The notes under the pieces are model-generated. The model saw only the letters and a list, made by a program, of their open reading frames with translations, searched no databases and was not told the DNA's origin. This document shows, piece by piece, positions 3,088 to 64,000 of a DNA stretch of 64,000 nt. The translations under genes and the position numbers were made by a program. The first letter of the stretch is position 1, and the number at the start of each line of letters is the position of its first letter. The stretch comes from Tetraselmis striata (taxonomy: Eukaryota; Chlorophyta; Chlorodendrophyceae; Chlorodendrales; Chlorodendraceae): NCBI GenBank assembly GCA_006384855.1, contig VCJN01000708.1, forward strand, positions 248,001 through 312,000, read 5' to 3'.

Positions 3088-3132
<45 letters not shown>

Positions 3133-12433: not shown

Positions 12434-13086
12434 GATCGGCGCGTGCTGTCGTCCTTGGGACGCAGCTGGGTTTCGAGAGCCGCCAGCGGTGAGAGTTGCT
12501 ATGCTAGGGCTTGCGTATACTGAGGTGATGCCGGTGGGGAGGCCGCAGCGGCAGCGGGGCCGGTGTGAATGATGGCGGAGACAGCAGTGCTCGGCGCTTT
12601 CGTCTGCTGCCTCGTAGTATTCGAGGCGCTACTACGGCAGACGCATAAATAACAGGGATGAGTTTCCGCGCCGCCCATCGACATTATGGTTGATGGTAAA
12701 GTTCGCCCCGGTTGATGGTTCCTCGCGTGTCGTCGTTAATCGCGGGGTGCTGAAGAATGCCGATGGATGTGCCATACATGTTGCATAATACCTGTATATA
12801 AGTAATATTATAATATAACGAGGATCATTCTATACGGGGGTCCGCATGGACCAGTAGTAGCCGGCCAGTATAAACAAGCCGCCTATCTGCGTACTAAGCC
12901 AGGTAGTATCCTATCCGGCACCCGTACCGTCAGCACGCCACTTTCTTACGCGAGGCTGTACGTTTATCAGCCTGCCTGCTAACCGGCGCCCGTCGTTTCG
13001 GTCCGGGGGCCGCCCCCGGATATATAAGGCCAGTAAGAATTGCAAGTGTGTTTTAGGTGCCATATGTCGCTCAAAACAGAGGGGGG

Positions 13087-13117
<31 letters not shown>

Positions 13118-15384: not shown

Positions 15385-15419
<35 letters not shown>
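15385..15419. repeat. poly-C tract, 35 nt
   Basis: Uninterrupted C run in intergenic DNA; it produces an artefactual poly-proline reading frame. Confidence 0.95.
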
Positions 15420-55977: not shown

Positions 55978-57416
55978 CCAGACTATCACTATATGCAATA
56001 GGATTGCGACGGCTCCTCCTTCCACGAGACTGGGGAAAGGACTGCGAGTGACAAAGCGCATTCGCCACCCCCCCCCCCCCCCCCCCCCCCCTCCCCGCAG
56101 ACACGGGGTCAACAGTCATACAGCAGCGTCTGCCCGCCCGCCCGCGGCCGTTGCCAGAGTAGCGAGGTCCGCAGTCCGCGCGGGCTCCGAAATATTATTA
56201 ATACTAATCTCCCCGCCAGCATACTGACAGAAGAGCGAAACTATCCGAGATTCCCAGCCTTGAACTTGTGCGAGCATTCACGTATTGCGGACCTGTACCT
56301 GAGCTGGCATGTGAGCTGCTTACATGCTGTGGCGGAACATCCGCCACGATGCCCCGCGTCGCGGATTTAACGTACTACGTCGCAGTATATTACATGCAGT
56401 ATCGTCTGCCAGTCGTCGTCGCTAGCTACGATTATATACACCAGATTGCGCTGCTCCGCATGCTATGCAGGTACGGTACCCGTAGAGACCCCAAATGACG
56501 TCATCCGGGGATTGTAACGACCGATAACCTTGCTTATTAAGCCCTTGCACCCCGACCGTTACTCGTTTTTCGCCCTAGCGGGTCCCGCGACCTCATCAGT
56601 ACTTTACCACTTGACCCGTCATTTTCACTGCTGTATCGGCTACGTTCGCGCGGTACGGGTTAGTCGCGCCGCCTACTGCGGGATACGGACGGCTACCTGT
56701 AGTGGCTATGAGTATTCTCTATAGTCGTCGCGGCGCGCATCTGCTCACCTCTCCTGGCGCAGCGCCTAGCTACCATCGCGTCAGTGCGCGTACCCCGGCG
56801 TTTCTGGAGTAGCACTATACAGGAGGACGAACGGCGCCGTACAGGTAGTCGTAGTCGTAGTCGCGCGGCGCGTCTGCTCGCCCTCCCGGTGCTGCGCCTC
56901 GCTGCCATCGCGGCTGACTGGAGGTTGCCCCGACGTTTCTGGGGCGGGTACTTTCCCAAAGCTTTCTCAGGTGTGACTCCTCCCCACCCTAGCACGCACA
57001 CACACAGCAGCGCACACGGGGGACGGGGGACGCTCCTTCTTGTATAGTTGCACCGCGTGCCGCTGGATACGGACGATTACGGTACGCTAGTCGCTACTCG
57101 TATTCGCGTGGAACTGTCGGTACCGCCCCGGCGGGGGGCGCTGCACATCGTCACACCAGCGGTGCACCGCGCCCCTCGGCGACGGGTCGAGGCGCTCCTA
57201 GAGGGAACAGTATTTGCGTTTGAACCAGGGGATTCCTGCGACCCCTGATATGTGCGCTTTGCCGCACTGGATACTGTAGTCTCTAATCGCTAACAGCATG
57301 TACCGTGCCCGCGTGGCAGACCTGTTGGTGAACGCTCTCCTCGCTAGTGGTGCGGCTCGCGCACCGTGCACCTGCATCGTTCTAACCAGCGCGTTCTGTG
57401 CAGGGCCCTCCTTGGA
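55978..57416. other. intergenic; contains a diverged tandem duplication
   Basis: About 1.4 kb upstream of the fibrillin gene and of the terminal island. It starts with a C-run (about 56068-56091). No gene is supported. A duplicated segment lies at 56722-56945. Frames of moderate length are Arg-rich and arise from GC-rich triplets such as CGTAGT. Confidence 0.5.
56722..56945. repeat. diverged tandem duplication, unit about 95-100 bp
   Basis: Segments at about 56722-56815 and 56850-56945 align in the same orientation (shared GTCGCGCGGCGCG, CATCGCG, CCC(G)GCGTTTCTGG-type blocks), with many substitutions. The spacing is about 130 bp. Confidence 0.6.
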
Positions 57417-58091
57417 ATGAAACTATCTGATATTTCACTCCACGTAGACGTGGAACATGTTCGTTCAGTACTCAATTTGAGTCCTGAACGTAATCCGGAC
57501 TTGGGCGAGGTCATACGCCTTCTTCGCGGGGAGCGGGGAAAGGCGAAAAAGTCTGAGACTGCGTCCATTGATGGCGCCTTACTACCTTGCATGCAACAAA
57601 TGTATGCATCTGGTTTGCTTGTTGACGCTGCACCGAACTTCATTCCTCCAAGTCAATATGACGTGCTGGTCACCGACATATGTGAAGAAGACTTGAAGTC
57701 TGTATGCATCGAGCTTGGGCAGGAGTACCTTTCTGTTCGAGAGAACAAAGCGGGATTTCCGCTATCCGGACTGTTCTACGGAAGCAATCATCGATTGTTT
57801 GTTTGTCTGCCAGTTGAAAAGAGGAACATCGAGCTCAATGTGCCGTTTCTGATCGATACTGGGGCACCGTATACATATGTGACAGGATATGTATTTGAAA
57901 AACTGGGTTACGTAGAAAATTGCCCATCTTCCGCCACCATACATGTGAATGATACTGGAATGAATGTCAACCTGTCTGTTGGCCACTTTAAAAATGTTAA
58001 TTTGTTGGGCCAAGACTTTTTTCTTTACGCTCAATTAACATTATCGGTAGACTATACCGAGCGCACTGTTATCATTTCAAAGTGCATTTAG
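57417..58091 (+). CDS. retropepsin-like aspartic protease domain protein
   Basis: Single open frame from ATG 57417 to TAG, 224 residues, lower in GC than the host genes. The C-terminal half matches a clan AA aspartic protease half-domain: hydrophobic-hydrophobic-D-T-G (FLIDTGAPYTYV, D147) and the second box NLLGQDFF (195-202), as in Gag-Pol or DDI-type retropepsins. Such enzymes act as homodimers. The N-terminal 130 residues are unknown, helical and acidic, with no Gag, RT or ubiquitin-like pattern. No LTR or polymerase lies beside it. A CTTCTGTGCAG just upstream could be a splice acceptor, so a 5' exon is possible. It could be a domesticated retroelement protease or a viral gene. Confidence 0.65.
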   Translation: MKLSDISLHVDVEHVRSVLNLSPERNPDLGEVIRLLRGERGKAKKSETASIDGALLPCMQQMYASGLLVDAAPNFIPPSQYDVLVTDICEEDLKSVCIELGQEYLSVRENKAGFPLSGLFYGSNHRLFVCLPVEKRNIELNVPFLIDTGAPYTYVTGYVFEKLGYVENCPSSATIHVNDTGMNVNLSVGHFKNVNLLGQDFFLYAQLTLSVDYTERTVIISKCI

Positions 58092-58815
58092 AACTATTTG
58101 TTATGTATTTGATTTACCTGAAGCTGCGCGTGCAAGATGATGACCTCAGTGGGTGCGCATACCCAGAGCTGGTGCCCCTCCTGCTGGACCCCTCCCTGGC
58201 CCACTACGGTGAGTTGGTGGACAGGCGGGCGAACAGAGGGTGCGCCAGAAAGGATCTCCACATACACACGCTCATTTGACGGCGCCCTCTCCTCGCAGAA
58301 CCCCCCGTTCCAGACGAGCCCCCAGCGACGCGATCGAAGGACTCTGTGTTGCGCGCCGCCGCTAGCGGCTGAACGGAGGTCTCATACGCGCCTCAGATTA
58401 GCGCTGGTTTTTGTCGGTACCGCTCTTTGACGCTGCGCGCGCCGGGATACGGAGCGCTCCTGCAGTCGCTACCCGTTGGCTGTAGTCGCTAGTAGCGTGC
58501 TGTCGGTTCGCGACGGGATCTGCCGGCAACGCTTGTCTCACCGGTGATGGTCCGCCGCCATCGCTTAGGTACTGCTGTCGGAGGCATTTCTGCTGTCGGG
58601 GACGTTTTCTGGACTGGCACTTGCCTGCCTAAACGGAGACTGTGGGTGGGGGGTCCGACAGGGCGCGTGCCGTCGCGCCTCCGTTCCCTTCAGATCTATT
58701 GTGAGTATCGCATCTCTGCCATTACGTAGCTTGAACCCCCATCCGGTGTTGCTGATCTCTGGCGAACCTCCTGCGCTTCAGATCTACGAGTTTTTTTTGT
58801 TCACCGTCCGCAAGA
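58092..58815. other. intergenic with leader-like repeat copy A
   Basis: About 720 nt between the protease and the LRAT-like gene. It contains 58342-58430, which resembles 60506-60590. Frames are short and no gene is seen. Confidence 0.5.
58342..58430 (+). repeat. dispersed leader-like repeat, copy A
   Basis: Shares CTCTGTGTT, AGCGGCTGAACGG, AGCGCTGGTT and TGTCGGTACCGCTC, in the same order and spacing, with 60506-60590. Both copies lie a few hundred bases upstream of an intronless frame, so they may be a duplicated promoter or 5' region. Confidence 0.65.
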
Positions 58816-59430
58816 ATGAGCTCAGTCATAGAGCAAGTGATTGCAGCCCTACAGAAGGCGTTCGAGGCAGACACCACATTTGATCTTCTACAAAAGATGC
58901 TCAGGGGAATGGAAACTGCTGATTTTTATCCTGACCATACTACCGAGCTTCTTGTCACTCCAGAGGATGTGGGAGTTTTCGAAATTGTTTCGAAAGCTCA
59001 GCGGGGCGATCAGATTGTGGTCCAGTGGAAGTCCATCAACGATGGCGAAGTGGACATTGCGCCCCACTTTGGTATTTTTGCAGGAATGGATGAGCACAAA
59101 TTACCGTGGATGATAGACATGTGTCCTACATCTGATACAAGAAGTACGTACGTGAAACGAATCACTCTGGAGGATTTTCTGTCCCACGAGAATCGTTCCT
59201 TATATAAGTTAGGTATTGTCAGACATCTCACAGCATTCGAGAAAGAATTCTCTGCATCTCTCGCCGAAGCCTTTGCCAATCTTCCTGTGGACCAGCAACC
59301 GGCTTACCATTTTTTTGGACGTAATTGTGAAGTGTTCAGCTATTTCTGTCGGACAGGAAGGTGCGTGGATGTGAGTTGCCATAATTGGAGTGCGACTTTG
59401 AGTCCATTTGCGCACTTACGTGGCCCTTGA
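58816..59430 (+). CDS. LRAT / NlpC-P60-like protein
   Basis: Intronless 204-residue frame starting at ATG 58816, with lower GC than neighbours. GDQIVVQWKS, then APHFGIFAGMDE with His84, and a later FFGRNCEVFSYFCRTG with Cys171, match the permuted NlpC/P60 fold of the LRAT family (H-box followed by the NCEHF-type catalytic Cys box). LRAT-type proteins are thiol acyltransferases or phospholipases; related proteins also occur in large DNA viruses and in bacteria. The usual His after NCE is Val here (NCEVF), a change that may matter less than the catalytic Cys. There is no membrane anchor at the C-terminus. Substrate unknown. Confidence 0.65.
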   Translation: MSSVIEQVIAALQKAFEADTTFDLLQKMLRGMETADFYPDHTTELLVTPEDVGVFEIVSKAQRGDQIVVQWKSINDGEVDIAPHFGIFAGMDEHKLPWMIDMCPTSDTRSTYVKRITLEDFLSHENRSLYKLGIVRHLTAFEKEFSASLAEAFANLPVDQQPAYHFFGRNCEVFSYFCRTGRCVDVSCHNWSATLSPFAHLRGP

Positions 59431-59613
59431 TACGCAGGTCTCTGCCGCAGGTCTCCGTCCAAGAATGGCGCAACTTGTTGTGGTGCAAGTGTTGTGCGCG
59501 CAGACTGTCCATGCATGCACCGCACCCGTGCCACTCTTTTCCGCGAAGAAACGTAAGCGAACGATTGAGAGTGTGCCGCATTGCGCGTTTGCTACGCAAG
59601 GCCGTTTATTGCG

Positions 59614-60165
59614 ATGGCGCTGAAGGCGGTGGAGCTGTTCGCCGACCTCAACGTAGACCCGGTACGGGCGGGCAGCGTCGCGGGCAACATGTGGTGGCTC
59701 GACCCCGTCATCCCGGAGGGTCCGCCGATCCCATTGGTCGTCCGCGTGAGGGTGGTCAAGGCGCATAGATCCCTCGTGGGTTTGTACGTCGGCGAGCTGA
59801 TGAAGGAGCTGGAGCGAAGAGGCGTCGAGGGTTGCATCGGCGCGCGCGTTTCAGATCGCACCGGTCCGGAGGGGGACACCACAACCAACTCCACAAACGT
59901 CGTGTTCGCGCGCGGCGCGACGTACACCTGCTACCGGTTTCCGAACCCTGGGATGCTACCGAAATTGTGGGCGCGCCATCGGGCGGCGTCGGCGGTCCAG
60001 CGGTGGTGGCGCCGGGGGCGCTTCCGCCGGGAGAAGGCGCGGTTCGTCCGCGCGGACGACCTCATGTTCGAGTCGGGCGACCCCGGACCGCTGCCGCTCC
60101 ACCTGGTGCAGCGCGTGCTGAGCGAAGCGCTGGCGGCGCGGCTCCGAGAACGATGGGGTCACTGA
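59614..60165 (+). CDS. hypothetical basic protein, 183 residues
   Basis: ATG at 59614 (MALKAVELFADL), ending at TGA. Strong GC-rich codon bias, unlike the LRAT-like gene before it. A beta-rich first half (PLVVRVRVVKAHRSLVGLYV) is followed by a Trp/Arg segment ASAVQRWWRRGRFRREKARF that resembles an IQ-type helix, and a C-terminal helix (LVQRVLSEALAARLRERW). No family recognised. No introns evident. Confidence 0.55.
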   Translation: MALKAVELFADLNVDPVRAGSVAGNMWWLDPVIPEGPPIPLVVRVRVVKAHRSLVGLYVGELMKELERRGVEGCIGARVSDRTGPEGDTTTNSTNVVFARGATYTCYRFPNPGMLPKLWARHRAASAVQRWWRRGRFRREKARFVRADDLMFESGDPGPLPLHLVQRVLSEALAARLRERWGH

Positions 60166-60700
60166 GATCGCAGCCCGCGCCCGCCAATCACCCAAACTCG
60201 GCTCGAGCGTACACGCAAAACTGGAGCGAAGACTTTTACGGCTTTGAATGCACCTCCTCCGAGGCGTGATCACACCCGAGAATGCCCCTTAATACCTCAT
60301 TACAGTCTTTCCCAAAAATAATAGCGACTGGCAGCACGGTAGACCCTCCTCAGCCCGTAGAAGACGTTGTCATGCAGCAATTTGGCGGCTTTGACACCGA
60401 GTAGAAGTGTAAACACATTCCAAACACCCTTTGTTCGCCCTCACTGTTCCCTCTCCTCACATAACCCCTCGTTTCGGGCGCGCGCCCAGCTATGTGACAG
60501 GAGGCCTCTGTGTTGGGCGTGCGCCGCGAGCGGCTGAACGGCGTGTTGCGGTTCAGGTGAGCGCTGGTTGTGTCGGTACCGCTCGTTTCGCTGTCGGTTG
60601 TATGGGCGGGAGCGTTTCTGGGTGGCACGCACGACCACACCAGCTAAGTAACCTGACTTTCTCATGACAGGTAGCGCCTGGACTAGCGGTTGTTGCGAGT
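60166..60700. other. intergenic with leader-like repeat copy B
   Basis: Short AT-richer stretch followed by GC-rich sequence. It includes 60506-60590, the second copy of the leader-like repeat. No gene seen. Confidence 0.5.
60506..60590 (+). repeat. dispersed leader-like repeat, copy B
   Basis: Counterpart of 58342-58430, lying about 110 bases upstream of the frame that begins at 60701. Confidence 0.65.
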
Positions 60701-61867
60701 ATGGACTTCATTGCCCCAATACCAAACACCGTCGTCGCTGAAGCAACGCGCCCAAATGGGTGTTTTTTATTACAAAACTGTTGTCAGAACTCGATGGACT
60801 TGATCCCAACACGCTGCCTCGGTATCTTTCCAGGGGGGCTCATACGCCCCACTTTGTGCAACCGCTTACTTGCAGCAAGCGGGCACCCTCTATACTCAAA
60901 AGGACGATACCCTGACCCTCAATGGTACTGCACAATTTTGCGCATTTGTGAAAGGGTTTCTCAAACTCCGGCGCGGCGGCAATTGGTCCGCACCGTGGGA
61001 CAAACAATGATGTCACACGACCTGTTGAGGCAAGATGTTCATGGTGTCATGACAGCCTGTGTCAGATTTTTTGCCCTATGTACCCTTCCTGGCGACTCCG
61101 AGACAGTTCCTATTGTCATCCTTGGTGTGGTTTGAACGCTAGGCCCTGACCAACTCCGACATCACAACTTCCAGACATTATGCATCAAGTTGATGTCACT
61201 TCCTGGTGTTCTAGGACACAGCTCCACAGGCAGCACCATACGTGATTTGTTCAGACGTATCACAAAGGACAACATGGCCATCGATGTACTTCAAGATTTC
61301 TCTACCAGTTTGGCATCCCTTCTGGACAATGAAGTTGTACTGCAAGTCATCAACGATCTTTGTGGCTATAACATCTCGCTTCCGGATTGCCCTAAATGGG
61401 TTGTTTTTGTTGCAAAACTGGTGATACGTAGCCAGCGTCCGCCTGCGGACTTACAGTGGGATGTCCTCAAAGTCCTGGACGTTTTCGCATCCACTCAATC
61501 GAATTTCACTGCTTTCATTAACGAGCTTATTTCATGTGATCCGGTACATGGTGATCTCATCCTAGATTTGATGCAGGAAATGACTAGCCAGGAAAGAGAG
61601 TTTGTAGGCACAACTTCATCGTACGCTTCCTTCACAATTACTACAAGACATGTGACGAATTGGGCGACGAGAATGCAATACGCAAACTATAGCTTTACAC
61701 TGGAGAAAATGTGTGAAATTTTGCTAGCAATGATGCGTCGTTGCCGCACCGAACTAGACTTTCAGTCGTTGTTTCCTCCAGAGCACCAGCTCAGAACTAG
61801 GAGACGTGATGCTAGTCACGCAGGCCATAGATGCTGTAAATCGATAGCCGCATATTTGTATTTGTGA
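60701..61867 (+). pseudogene. unknown protein gene split by one in-frame TGA
   Basis: Two frames, 60701-61135 and 61136-61867, lie in the same register and are separated only by TGA 61133-61135. The codons just after the stop still read as protein (LGPDQLRHHNFQTLCIKL). The second part alone has MSLPGVLGHSSTG..., VLQDFSTSLASLL, CPKWVVFVAKLV and NFTAFINELIS, a helical unknown. Near 60,750 a different frame reads APKWVFFITKLLSELDGL, which resembles the CPKWVVFVAKLV segment, suggesting an internal repeat and a frameshift (a G6 run at 60833-60838 is a candidate). Either a decaying gene, a recoded TGA, or two genes. No family recognised. Confidence 0.5.
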
Positions 61868-62145
61868 TACTTTGTGAAGTATTGACTCGCCGCGTTTCAT
61901 GTGGTAGCTGTGACACGGCGATTAACCACCCGTGACTGTGGCTACGGCTGGCGCCGTCGCGATAGGGGCGTGTGTCTGTCGACATATAGTTAAACTACAT
62001 TTCGGAATTTGTGGGACACCCCCGTTTCGACGGTAACTATATTCAACAAGCATGTGATCCACTTGGGTGATCCACACCATGATACACTCATGCAAGCTGC
62101 CCTAAACGCTCGTCCGGGCGCCACTGTAATATGGTGTCATCATGT
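61868..62145. other. short spacer
   Basis: Contains CATGTGGTAGCTGTGAC (61898-61914). A similar string, GTGTGGTAGCTGTGAC, occurs at 63926-63941 near the window end. No gene. Confidence 0.5.
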
Positions 62146-62599
62146 ATGAGCGATAGCAGCGTTCTCCACCGCGTGGACCCTCCTCTGAGATGGAAAAGTG
62201 ACAGAATTAAGGCAAAGGGCCCAGATGGACACGTAAAAAATCTGCCAAGTGGAGATGGCAAAACGACACTCCATGTTCTTTCATGCGGACCAGACGGTGT
62301 TTCAGTTTGAAAAAACTAATCCGATAGAGACGATGGAGAAGATTGTGAGTGTTGAGATTAAGATTCTAAAAATTCAAGATATCATGGCCTCTCACGGAAT
62401 CGACAACCCGGGTCATCCGTCCTCTTTGATGATTGAGCTCCCGGGAATCGGGAAGGTTTCCTTTTTTGATGCATACATGTGGCACAGGTCGGTATTGCAG
62501 TCGTATAGCAAGGAGTGGACAAGGGCACGATTGATAAGCGGATTCGAGTACATACAGGAGTACATGGAAGAGTTTGAGATAACTGTGTTTGGAAAATAA
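62146..62599 (+). CDS. hypothetical protein, two overlapping candidate frames
   Basis: The main frame starts at ATG 62255 (MAKRHSMFFHADQ) and ends at TAA 62597-62599: 114 residues, acidic, with IMASHGIDNPGHPSSLMIEL and GFEYIQEYMEEFEITVFGK. A second frame starts at ATG 62146 (MSDSSVLHRVDPPLRW) and ends at TGA 62308-62310, overlapping the first by about 55 bases. The two may be one protein joined by a frameshift, or only the longer may be real. No family recognised. Confidence 0.45.
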
Positions 62600-62758
62600 A
62601 CGAAATTATGTATATCGCCACGTCATCTCGGTGGATACATCGCCACGTCATCCCGCGTCCCCGCGCGACATAGGACAACGCGGCAACGGACAGCGCGGCA
62701 ACAGACCGCGTCCGTGAAGACACCCGCCACACCCCAGCGGGGCGGTAGAGACGGGGAG

Positions 62759-63373
62759 ATGGCGCGCGGGGAGGTGCTCTCCGCGGATGGCACGCCGCTC
62801 CACTGCGCCGCGGCGTCCGCCGCGCTGTTCATGTACGGGTTCAAGCCGGGGACGGCCCGCTTTCCGCTGAGGTGCACTCGCACGGGAAAGGTGAGCAAGG
62901 TTACCGCCGGCAAGTGTAGCACGTGCGAGGCGGCGCTGGTCGGCCGACGCGACATGTATTGCGCGGGGTGCGAGACGGCCGCGTACTGCTCGCGCGAGTG
63001 CCAGGCGTCGCACTGGAGATCTGGCGGACACAAGGCGGTGTGCCGGGCCTTCGGGGAAAATCTTCTGTCCCTCCACCGGGTGCGCCGCGAGTGGGTAAAC
63101 GAGATCGGGAGCGGCAATCGAGTTTTCACCTGCACGAATGTGCCGTGTAGCGTCTGCGGCGCAAACCCGAGCGAGAGGTGGTGCGCGCTATGCCCCGGCG
63201 GGTTCTGTGTCTCGTGTTTCCCGGGAGGCGAGCGCCCCGCGGGGCACGCCGGTCAGTGCTTTAGGAGCGGCCTTGAGCTCAAGGACACCCTGAGGAAGCT
63301 GGGACGTCCCGAGAACGAAATAGCGTCGGTGCCAGTCGTGGAGGTGTTTCGTGTGCACATCTGCAGGGGTTAG
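62759..63373 (+). CDS. MYND zinc-finger plus B-box-like zinc protein
   Basis: ATG at 62759 (MARGEVLSADG), 204 residues, GC-rich. The MYND finger at 53-95 has all eight ligands in order: C53-x2-C56, C68-x2-C71, C77-x3-C81, H91-x3-C95 (seen as CSTC, CAGC, YCSREC, GHKAVC). A second Cys/His cluster at 130-167 (CSVC, CALC, CVSC, then H163 and C167) has B-box-like spacing. MYND domains bind proline-rich partners. An N-terminal DGTPLHCAAAS segment hints at one ankyrin-like helix. The stop (63371-63373) is one base from the stop of the opposing frame. No intron seen. Confidence 0.68.
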   Translation: MARGEVLSADGTPLHCAAASAALFMYGFKPGTARFPLRCTRTGKVSKVTAGKCSTCEAALVGRRDMYCAGCETAAYCSRECQASHWRSGGHKAVCRAFGENLLSLHRVRREWVNEIGSGNRVFTCTNVPCSVCGANPSERWCALCPGGFCVSCFPGGERPAGHAGQCFRSGLELKDTLRKLGRPENEIASVPVVEVFRVHICRG

Positions 63374-63374
63374 T

Positions 63375-63836
63375 CTAGAATGGACAGTCGTCATCGGAGA
63401 AGATAACGGAATCCAGGTCCCATCTCACGGAAAAACACCCCGCCGGATCGGCGCCGCCGACGTCTGGCCTAAGACCGTATGTAAGATTTCCTTTACGGAG
63501 AATTAGTTGCAGCCTTACCTGTCTGCTACCATCGGGCACGGGGGCGTCCTGGCTGGAATGCAGCAACGCGTTGCTCTTTCAGTGAGCGCCGCGAGGGTAT
63601 CCGGACACGAATATCGTGTCGTCTCCGCGCAGTCGCCGCTGCGGGCTCGGACACACGCGCTGCATAAGTTCGTACTCTGCCTGGATGATGACATTCAGTG
63701 CTTCGACCGAGTCGCGGAGTTCTGGAATGGCCGCGTCCCAGTAAACCGGGGCGGTCCTCGCCACGCACACAATGTCGTGATTGTCAGCACTCTCCACCGG
63801 TACGCACCAATGAACGCAAGCCATCTGGGAGGACAT
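63375..63836 (-). pseudogene. unknown minus-strand gene split by one in-frame TGA
   Basis: From ATG 63836 (MSSQMACVHWC) the frame reads SADNHDIVCVARTAPVYW, VEALNVIIQAEYELMQRVC and FVSGYPRGAH, then meets TGA 63579-63581. It continues in the same register (KSNALLHSSQDAPVPDG, RLQLILRKGNLTYGLRP, VRWDLDSVIFSDDD) to TAG 63375-63377. The downstream part is protein-like and has no ATG near its start, which argues for one gene with an internal stop. No family recognised. It faces the MYND gene tail to tail. Confidence 0.45.
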
Positions 63837-64000
63837 ATGCACAAGTTTGGGACAAAAGGGACACTTTTGTTTGGAAAAAAAACGCTCCGACTAAACTACG
63901 GACATTGTTGACATGTACGCGGTTCGTGTGGTAGCTGTGACCAATTGTAGGTGACAATTCGCCTGTGTGGTGTCGGGGAGTGGGTAGCATTCCAGAGAAG
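63837..64000. other. end of window
   Basis: Upstream of the last minus-strand frame; no feature beyond the repeated GTGGTAGCTGTGAC string. Confidence 0.4.

Follow-up and report, generated by a model that had tools for sequence, protein, structure and literature searches.

A gene-dense island in a Tetraselmis striata contig as the very probable left end of a partly broken endogenous giant-virus fragment

A stretch of 64,000 nucleotides of the alga Tetraselmis striata (in the following "the window") was analysed, which comprises positions 248001-312000 of the 601-kb contig VCJN01000708.1, here named C554. The assembly (GCA_006384855.1) contains 224 Mb in 2903 contigs, and further contigs are named in the same way. 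The subject is a compact island at the right end of the window (57-64 kb), which a first-pass annotation had proposed to be endogenous viral or horizontally acquired DNA. C554 was followed onward to 412 kb, and coordinates above 64000 are window numbers extended into the contig. The island contains seven open reading frames (ORFs) of 114-224 amino acids at 57417-63373, which cover 66% of the stretch according to the ORF list, in agreement with the seven or so short frames in 6.5 kb noticed earlier. The following features were found:

56474-57416, plus strand: left intergenic stretch with repeat modules that also occur on viral-type contigs (56474-56607 is 78% identical to C2385 upstream of a 389-amino acid gene, 56657-56745 is 75% identical to C2607)
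57417-58091, plus strand: retropepsin-like ORF of 224 amino acids (Pfam gag-asp_proteas, E 0.0054, sub-threshold; DTG motif visible)
58285-58722, plus strand: three-module upstream mosaic that precedes the LRAT-like ORF, with DNA matches to C2385, C2607 and C2441
58816-59430, plus strand: LRAT/NlpC-P60-like ORF of 204 amino acids (Pfam LRAT, E 5.1e-4, sub-threshold)
59614-60165, plus strand: GC-rich ORF of 183 amino acids without assigned family (GC content at third codon positions, GC3, 0.85)
60701-61867, plus strand: single gene cut by an in-frame stop into the ORFs 60701-61135 and 61193-61867, open as 389 amino acids on C2385
62130-62599, plus strand: relics, with 62130-62293 (90% DNA identity to C2441, where the gene is open as 270 amino acids) joined to the end of another gene (ORF 62255, 114 amino acids; 62292-62592 has 74% DNA identity to C2385)
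62759-63373, plus strand: MYND zinc-finger ORF of 204 amino acids (Pfam zf-MYND, E 1.4e-7, above cut-off)
63375-63890, minus strand: open frame broken by a stop at 63579, a possible pseudogene by ORF inspection
63918-64000, plus strand: second copy of the stretch following the 389-amino acid gene (91% identity to C2385), which runs to 64017 beyond the window

The ORF excess was determined with 40 third-order Markov simulations, counting overlapping ORFs and both strands. Four ORFs of at least 200 amino acids were present at 57417-64000; the simulations gave 0.35 on average and at most 2, and chance ORFs were therefore rejected. The mixed GC content was verified and fell into two classes, with GC3 values of 0.45-0.57 for five ORFs (57417, 58816, 60701, 61193, 62255) and of 0.85 and 0.82 for the ORFs 59614 and 62759, respectively. 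The MYND stop codon (63371-63373) and the minus-strand stop codon (63375-63377) indeed lie tail to tail, one base apart. The absence of introns was confirmed for the reading frames, a check that covers coding sequence and not 5′-UTRs. The count of seven separate genes has to be revised, because ORFs 60701 and 61193 are parts of one gene and ORF 62255 opens within a relic, its start being an out-of-frame reading of the 270-amino acid gene. The proposed contents were clear for the MYND protein, while the retropepsin and LRAT assignments remained below the Pfam cut-offs. A PDB search with the retropepsin-like protein returned nothing meaningful (best E 0.99), and the LRAT-like protein had no match there. 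An LTR retrotransposon or retrovirus was rejected as source of the protease, because neither a reverse transcriptase nor an integrase was found beside it in the Pfam scan, which took in nine ORFs of 57-64 kb.

Similar upstream modules of about 80-150 bp, which are 75-81% alike (64-81% in a looser comparison), precede the protease, the LRAT-like ORF and the 389-amino acid gene. Within the mosaic, 58285-58428 is 77% identical to 60449-60587 and to C2385, 58437-58549 is 78% identical to a C2607 sequence upstream of the protease copy on that contig, and 58635-58722 is 81% identical to C2441. A DNA search with 57417-60000 revealed module copies at no fewer than four further places (C2385, C2607, C2441, and a second copy in the window); such counts from whole-genome DNA searches are lower bounds. 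Some modules contain GT...AG pairs, which by eye are candidate 5′-UTR introns. The modules may be promoters or repeat debris.

The ORF-dense DNA does not end with the window. It extends as far as about 99-101 kb, at which point the composition becomes host-like again, and the total length of the block is thus about 43 kb. From 64 to about 99 kb the ORFs cover 68% according to the ORF list and include frames of 470, 758, 302, 591, 236, 273, 639, 246, 236, 420, 390, 299, 1040, 425, 255, and 443 amino acids. Between 64 and 100 kb 22 ORFs of at least 200 amino acids were counted, where the simulations averaged 2.2 and never exceeded 5; the host stretch at 1-55 kb likewise topped the simulations (14 ORFs, maximum 8). 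The Pfam scan of the whole block, which included 29 ORFs, revealed in this core a PriCT_2 primase, a calcineurin-like phosphoesterase, two DDE_3 transposases, a protein kinase, and a RING protein. NCBIfam and PHROGs added an SbcD/Mre11-like protein (in the following SbcD-like; below the NCBIfam cut-off) and tail-fibre-like proteins. The primase belongs to a D5-like primase-helicase, for which PriCT_2 was above cut-off in the block copy, D5_N reached 22.9 bits (cut-off 22.4 bits) in the longer copy on C2385, and the C-terminus of the C2385 copy was of the P4 primase type (NCBIfam/PHROGs). Candidate TnpB-like ORFs lie at 74127 and 96520/97862, with a Cas12f1-like_TNB match under the cut-off (E 2.4e-4) for ORF 97862 only; the weakly TnpB-like ORF 96520 is 31% identical to a C2385 ORF, which itself had no PDB match. 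PDB searches with the 758-amino acid protein and the TnpB-like proteins yielded nothing useful. The DDE_3 transposases at 73084-73992, 95050-95817, C2605:121092 and on C2441 form one family with 31-49% identity, which is thus present in the block and on viral-type contigs. A 201-bp coding repeat occurs in tandem at 94046-94609 (about 95% alike) within a tail-fibre-like ORF.

The composition of the core clearly differs from that of the neighbouring host DNA. The tetranucleotide correlation to the host was 0.42-0.80 at 1-56 kb, 0.51 at 56-60 kb, 0.02-0.45 at 58-102 kb, and 0.45-0.55 beyond 102 kb. In 1-kb steps, the log-odds stayed close to zero over 57-64 kb, were mostly above zero over 64-99 kb, and lay below zero from 101 kb onward. 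The k-mer profile suggested for comparison was therefore clearly outside the host range over 64-100 kb, but only intermediate over 57-64 kb. Host-like DNA ends at about 56-57 kb, and the modules common to viral-type contigs start at 56474. The preceding 55 kb, which had been described as exon-rich host genes, were host-like in their k-mers and in three ORFs with Pfam matches (PAP_fibrillin, ABC1, kinase), and the description held to that extent. PAP_fibrillin points to a plastid-bearing host. Ordinary intron-rich genes directly adjoining the island were not seen in the flank. On the right side, an RVT_2 retrotransposon, which we take to be of the Copia type, lies about 30 kb after the block, and by its k-mers the DNA on both sides is that of the host. 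The direct repeat 55385-55653/101048-101310 (69%) was considered as a target-site mark and rejected as a dispersed host repeat, because a further copy is present at 107 kb and partial matches occur at 35 kb and on C2607. Ten stretches of nearly pure G or C, each 29-43 bases long, were observed in the window, all at or below 56.1 kb (e.g., 3088-3130, 13081-13117, 15385-15419).

Protein and DNA searches tied most of the frames to contigs of the same assembly that bear PolB, D5 or VLTF3, which are used as markers of the Nucleocytoviricota, as reported in PMC12455990. For ORFs 60701 and 62255, and for core genes other than the D5-like, 758-amino acid and SbcD-like genes, selected loci were compared. 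Six of the seven window ORFs have relatives elsewhere in the genome, four of them on C2385; for the LRAT-like ORF no other copy was found in the genome. DNA copies of the retropepsin gene are present on C2607 (91%) and C2605 (93%). The stretch 60441-61914 has 97% DNA identity to C2385:239.8-241.2 kb, and further relatives of its gene are found on C2441 and C1446. The matching sequence of the second part of ORF 62255 (74% DNA identity) lies on C2385 directly upstream of the D5-like gene. The best relative of the MYND ORF is C2385:311338 (76%), and the only relative found for ORF 59614 is C2499:40085 (57%), which has a PriCT_2 primase some 5 kb away (45.5 kb). In the core, the D5-like gene has 95.5% DNA identity to C2385, the 758-amino acid gene is 58% identical to C2385, and the SbcD-like gene is 43% and 41% identical to C613 and C2605, respectively. 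A diverged and split relative of the 758-amino acid gene at C1742:171220-173374 is perhaps a further relic.

C2385 (655 kb), C2605 (653 kb) and C613 (536 kb) look like large giant-virus genomes or insertions. Each of them carries one single-frame PolB (1223 amino acids on C2385, 1381 on C2605, 1150 on C613). The other 16 of the 21 PolB pieces in the genome are on C116, C181, C1470, and C1373 in several frames each, as intron-bearing genes would be split. A helicase-primase of the C962R/D5 type is present on all three contigs, as revealed by an alignment of the three (Pfam was run on two), and a profile of the three matched C962R (1e-46) and poxvirus D5 (1.5e-8) in the PDB. VLTF3 is present on C613 and C2605. 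The 60 kb of C2605 that were examined are packed with long ORFs, and four of the nine scanned ones had Pfam hits, including an F-box/ankyrin protein and a glycosyltransferase. In a tree of alignments of at least 230 residues, drawn from 80 kept of 293 confirmed IMG/VR loci, the three PolB pieces formed one clade (support 0.96) apart from 41 IMG/VR sequences. The C613 and C2605 polymerases are 88% identical, and that of C2385 is 48-49% identical to both. Among the 80 kept loci, the three best matches are 31-34% identical across most of the piece, and other loci have shorter conserved segments with up to 44% identity. The resident viral contigs thus look like a distant giant-virus clade. No relative was found in IMG/VR for the SbcD-like protein, VLTF3, the alignments of the D5-like and of the C962R-type D5 proteins, the LRAT-like protein or the 758-amino acid protein, which is weak evidence because these scans, like those of GTDB, use short peptide patterns. 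A phage collection contained no relative of the D5-like protein or PolB. Diverged PriCT_2 primase families were observed on C665, C2499, C1590 and at C2385:265936, 284180, and 631932; one of them is triplicated on one viral contig, and they possibly belong to satellite replicons.

Several genes of the block are broken, while longer open copies exist elsewhere in the genome. On C554, a stop interrupts the gene that is open as 389 amino acids on C2385. The D5-like frame, which is open for at least 813 amino acids on C2385, breaks off after 639 amino acids on C554 and is picked up again by another ORF at 82474. The opposite pattern was found for the MYND gene, which is cut at 108 amino acids on C2385 and open on C554, and for the protease gene, which is fuller on C554 than on C2605 and C2607. 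Copies were compared in eight cases, with dN/dS values of 0.29-0.65 and dS values of 0.02-0.19, a pattern that in these sequences indicates past constraint, partly relaxed, at little divergence.

Taken together, the island is very probably the left end of an approximately 43-kb, partly broken endogenous giant-virus (Nucleocytoviricota) fragment in a host chromosome. The proposal of a viral block whose edge is close to 57 kb was thus supported by the k-mers and by the kinship to contigs with PolB, D5 or VLTF3. Most likely, a giant virus akin to the C2385 virus would have put DNA into the nuclear genome. In this view the virus itself would have delivered the block by integration, rather than a resident copy passing it on later. 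After the insertion, sequence would have been deleted and rearranged, with much DNA lost and reading frames broken; the block also contains transposases and weakly TnpB-like ORFs similar to those on the viral contigs. The breaks in the genes presumably represent real decay, and the genes of the block would be silent or residual.

Several observations weigh against this interpretation. The ORF coverage of 66-68% falls short of a high coding density, which decay could explain. Of the genes that had been suggested as tests beyond 64 kb, the D5-like primase-helicase was found, whereas capsid and PolB, and also VLTF3, were not recognised in the block in genome searches; the packaging ATPase (A32) was never searched for with a model. 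The major capsid protein model PF04451 had no match in the genome, but its control was silent as well. The sole Capsid_N (PF16903) match in the genome is at C2306:108648-109034 and is interrupted by a stop. Relatives of the SbcD-like gene were found on C613 and C2605, and none on C2385. The gene order is not collinear with C2385, where the anchors are at 240, 269, 311, and 631 kb, compared with 60-82 kb here; this could be due to rearrangement, to several insertions or to a related virus with another gene order. The composition at 57-64 kb is intermediate and slightly nearer to the host (0.33-0.51) than to the core (0.22-0.40). A conserved host gene was not identified on the right side, where seven ORFs were scanned and Pfam hits were obtained in two retrotransposon ORFs only. 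Lastly, as reported in PMC10120064, errors of assembly can create stop codons and frameshifts in endogenous viruses, and the stops described here were read from the assembly.

The intermediate k-mers of the island could also mean that 56.4-63.9 kb consists of separate mobile gene cassettes with shared upstream modules, which move among host and viral DNA, and that only 64-100 kb is a viral insertion. This explanation, which is compatible with a viral fragment for the core, is considered rather unlikely. It fits the observation that similar modules precede different genes in the island and recur on C2607, C2385, and C2441, and that the C2607 protease copy is located close to the end of a contig of 30 kb, the first 20 kb of which are host-like, judged by the ORF pattern only. 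However, C2385 carries relatives of 60701/61193, 62255, and 62759, just as it does of the D5-like and the 758-amino acid genes of the core, and the relative of ORF 62255 is placed directly upstream of the D5-like gene there. An origin of the block from a smaller virus or a plasmid-like replicon (polinton-like virus, virophage, satellite) is improbable. In its favour, no PolB was recognised in the block, and the PriCT_2 primase family of the block differs from the C962R-type D5, with three members on C2385 and one on C665. The length of about 43 kb and an SbcD-like gene in common with VLTF3-bearing contigs argue against it, and neither a hexon nor an FtsK-type packaging ATPase was among the Pfam hits of the 29 block ORFs, with no model search aimed at the packaging ATPase.

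As large viral contigs are present in the assembly, a chimera of a viral and a host contig was also considered, and is regarded as very improbable. Host-like DNA bounds the block on both sides within one 601-kb contig. Moreover, the stretches of the protease, the 389-amino acid gene and the D5-like gene differ by 3-9% in DNA from their nearest copies and are broken at different places, so that the block is not simply a part of those contigs joined here by mistake. Bacterial gene transfer or contamination, suggested by the match of the SbcD-like gene to bacterial and phage families, has next to no likelihood, and the same applies to ordinary intron-poor host genes. A GTDB scan with the protease (one protein, short patterns) yielded no relative, and the MYND, RING, and kinase domains together with the kinship to contigs with VLTF3 and PolB point to a eukaryote or a virus; bacterial transfer was rejected on these grounds.

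An endogenous giant-virus fragment at this locus would not be without precedent, because giant endogenous viral elements have been well described, e.g., in Euglena (PMC12455990), Ectocarpus (PMC13236599), and Cymbomonas (PMC10675990). The C554 block is a further, partial member of this known kind, a degraded endogenous giant-virus fragment. As reported for Euglena gracilis (PMC12455990), Nucleocytoviricota DNA is found at several places of an algal genome, with tetranucleotide deviation, erosion, related copies, and transposable elements. The Euglena elements are described with a GC content of 25-37%, a length of 86-311 kb, a coding density above 90%, and capsid genes in most of them; in contrast, the C554 block is GC-mixed, about 43 kb long, without recognised capsid, and has an ORF coverage of 66-68%. 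Integrated giant viruses are likewise reported for Ectocarpus, some elements with a Fanzor-gene transposon (PMC13236599). Unlike the full-length, reactivatable elements described there, the C554 block is broken, and its TnpB/Fanzor assignment is weak. The Algavirales virus of about 400 kb in Cymbomonas (PMC10675990) is a comparable case of a giant virus amid host DNA in an algal assembly, which was a long-read assembly there; it is described as a complete virus genome, and the host genome has 914 Mb compared with 224 Mb here.

Less ordinary than the fragment itself is the distance of the virus clade, with the nearest IMG/VR polymerases at 31-34% identity. It is a doubtful, though conceivable, extension that the three contigs of 536-655 kb, the polymerase pieces of which are 48-88% alike and 31-34% identical to the nearest IMG/VR loci, represent an undescribed family-level giant-virus clade without a Pfam-recognisable double jelly-roll capsid, the genes of which spread into host chromosomes as small cassettes with their own upstream modules. 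With a decayed fragment and longer open relatives in one genome, decay, gene exchange and selection are traceable within a single organism, and the resident viral contigs could widen the known range of algal giant viruses.

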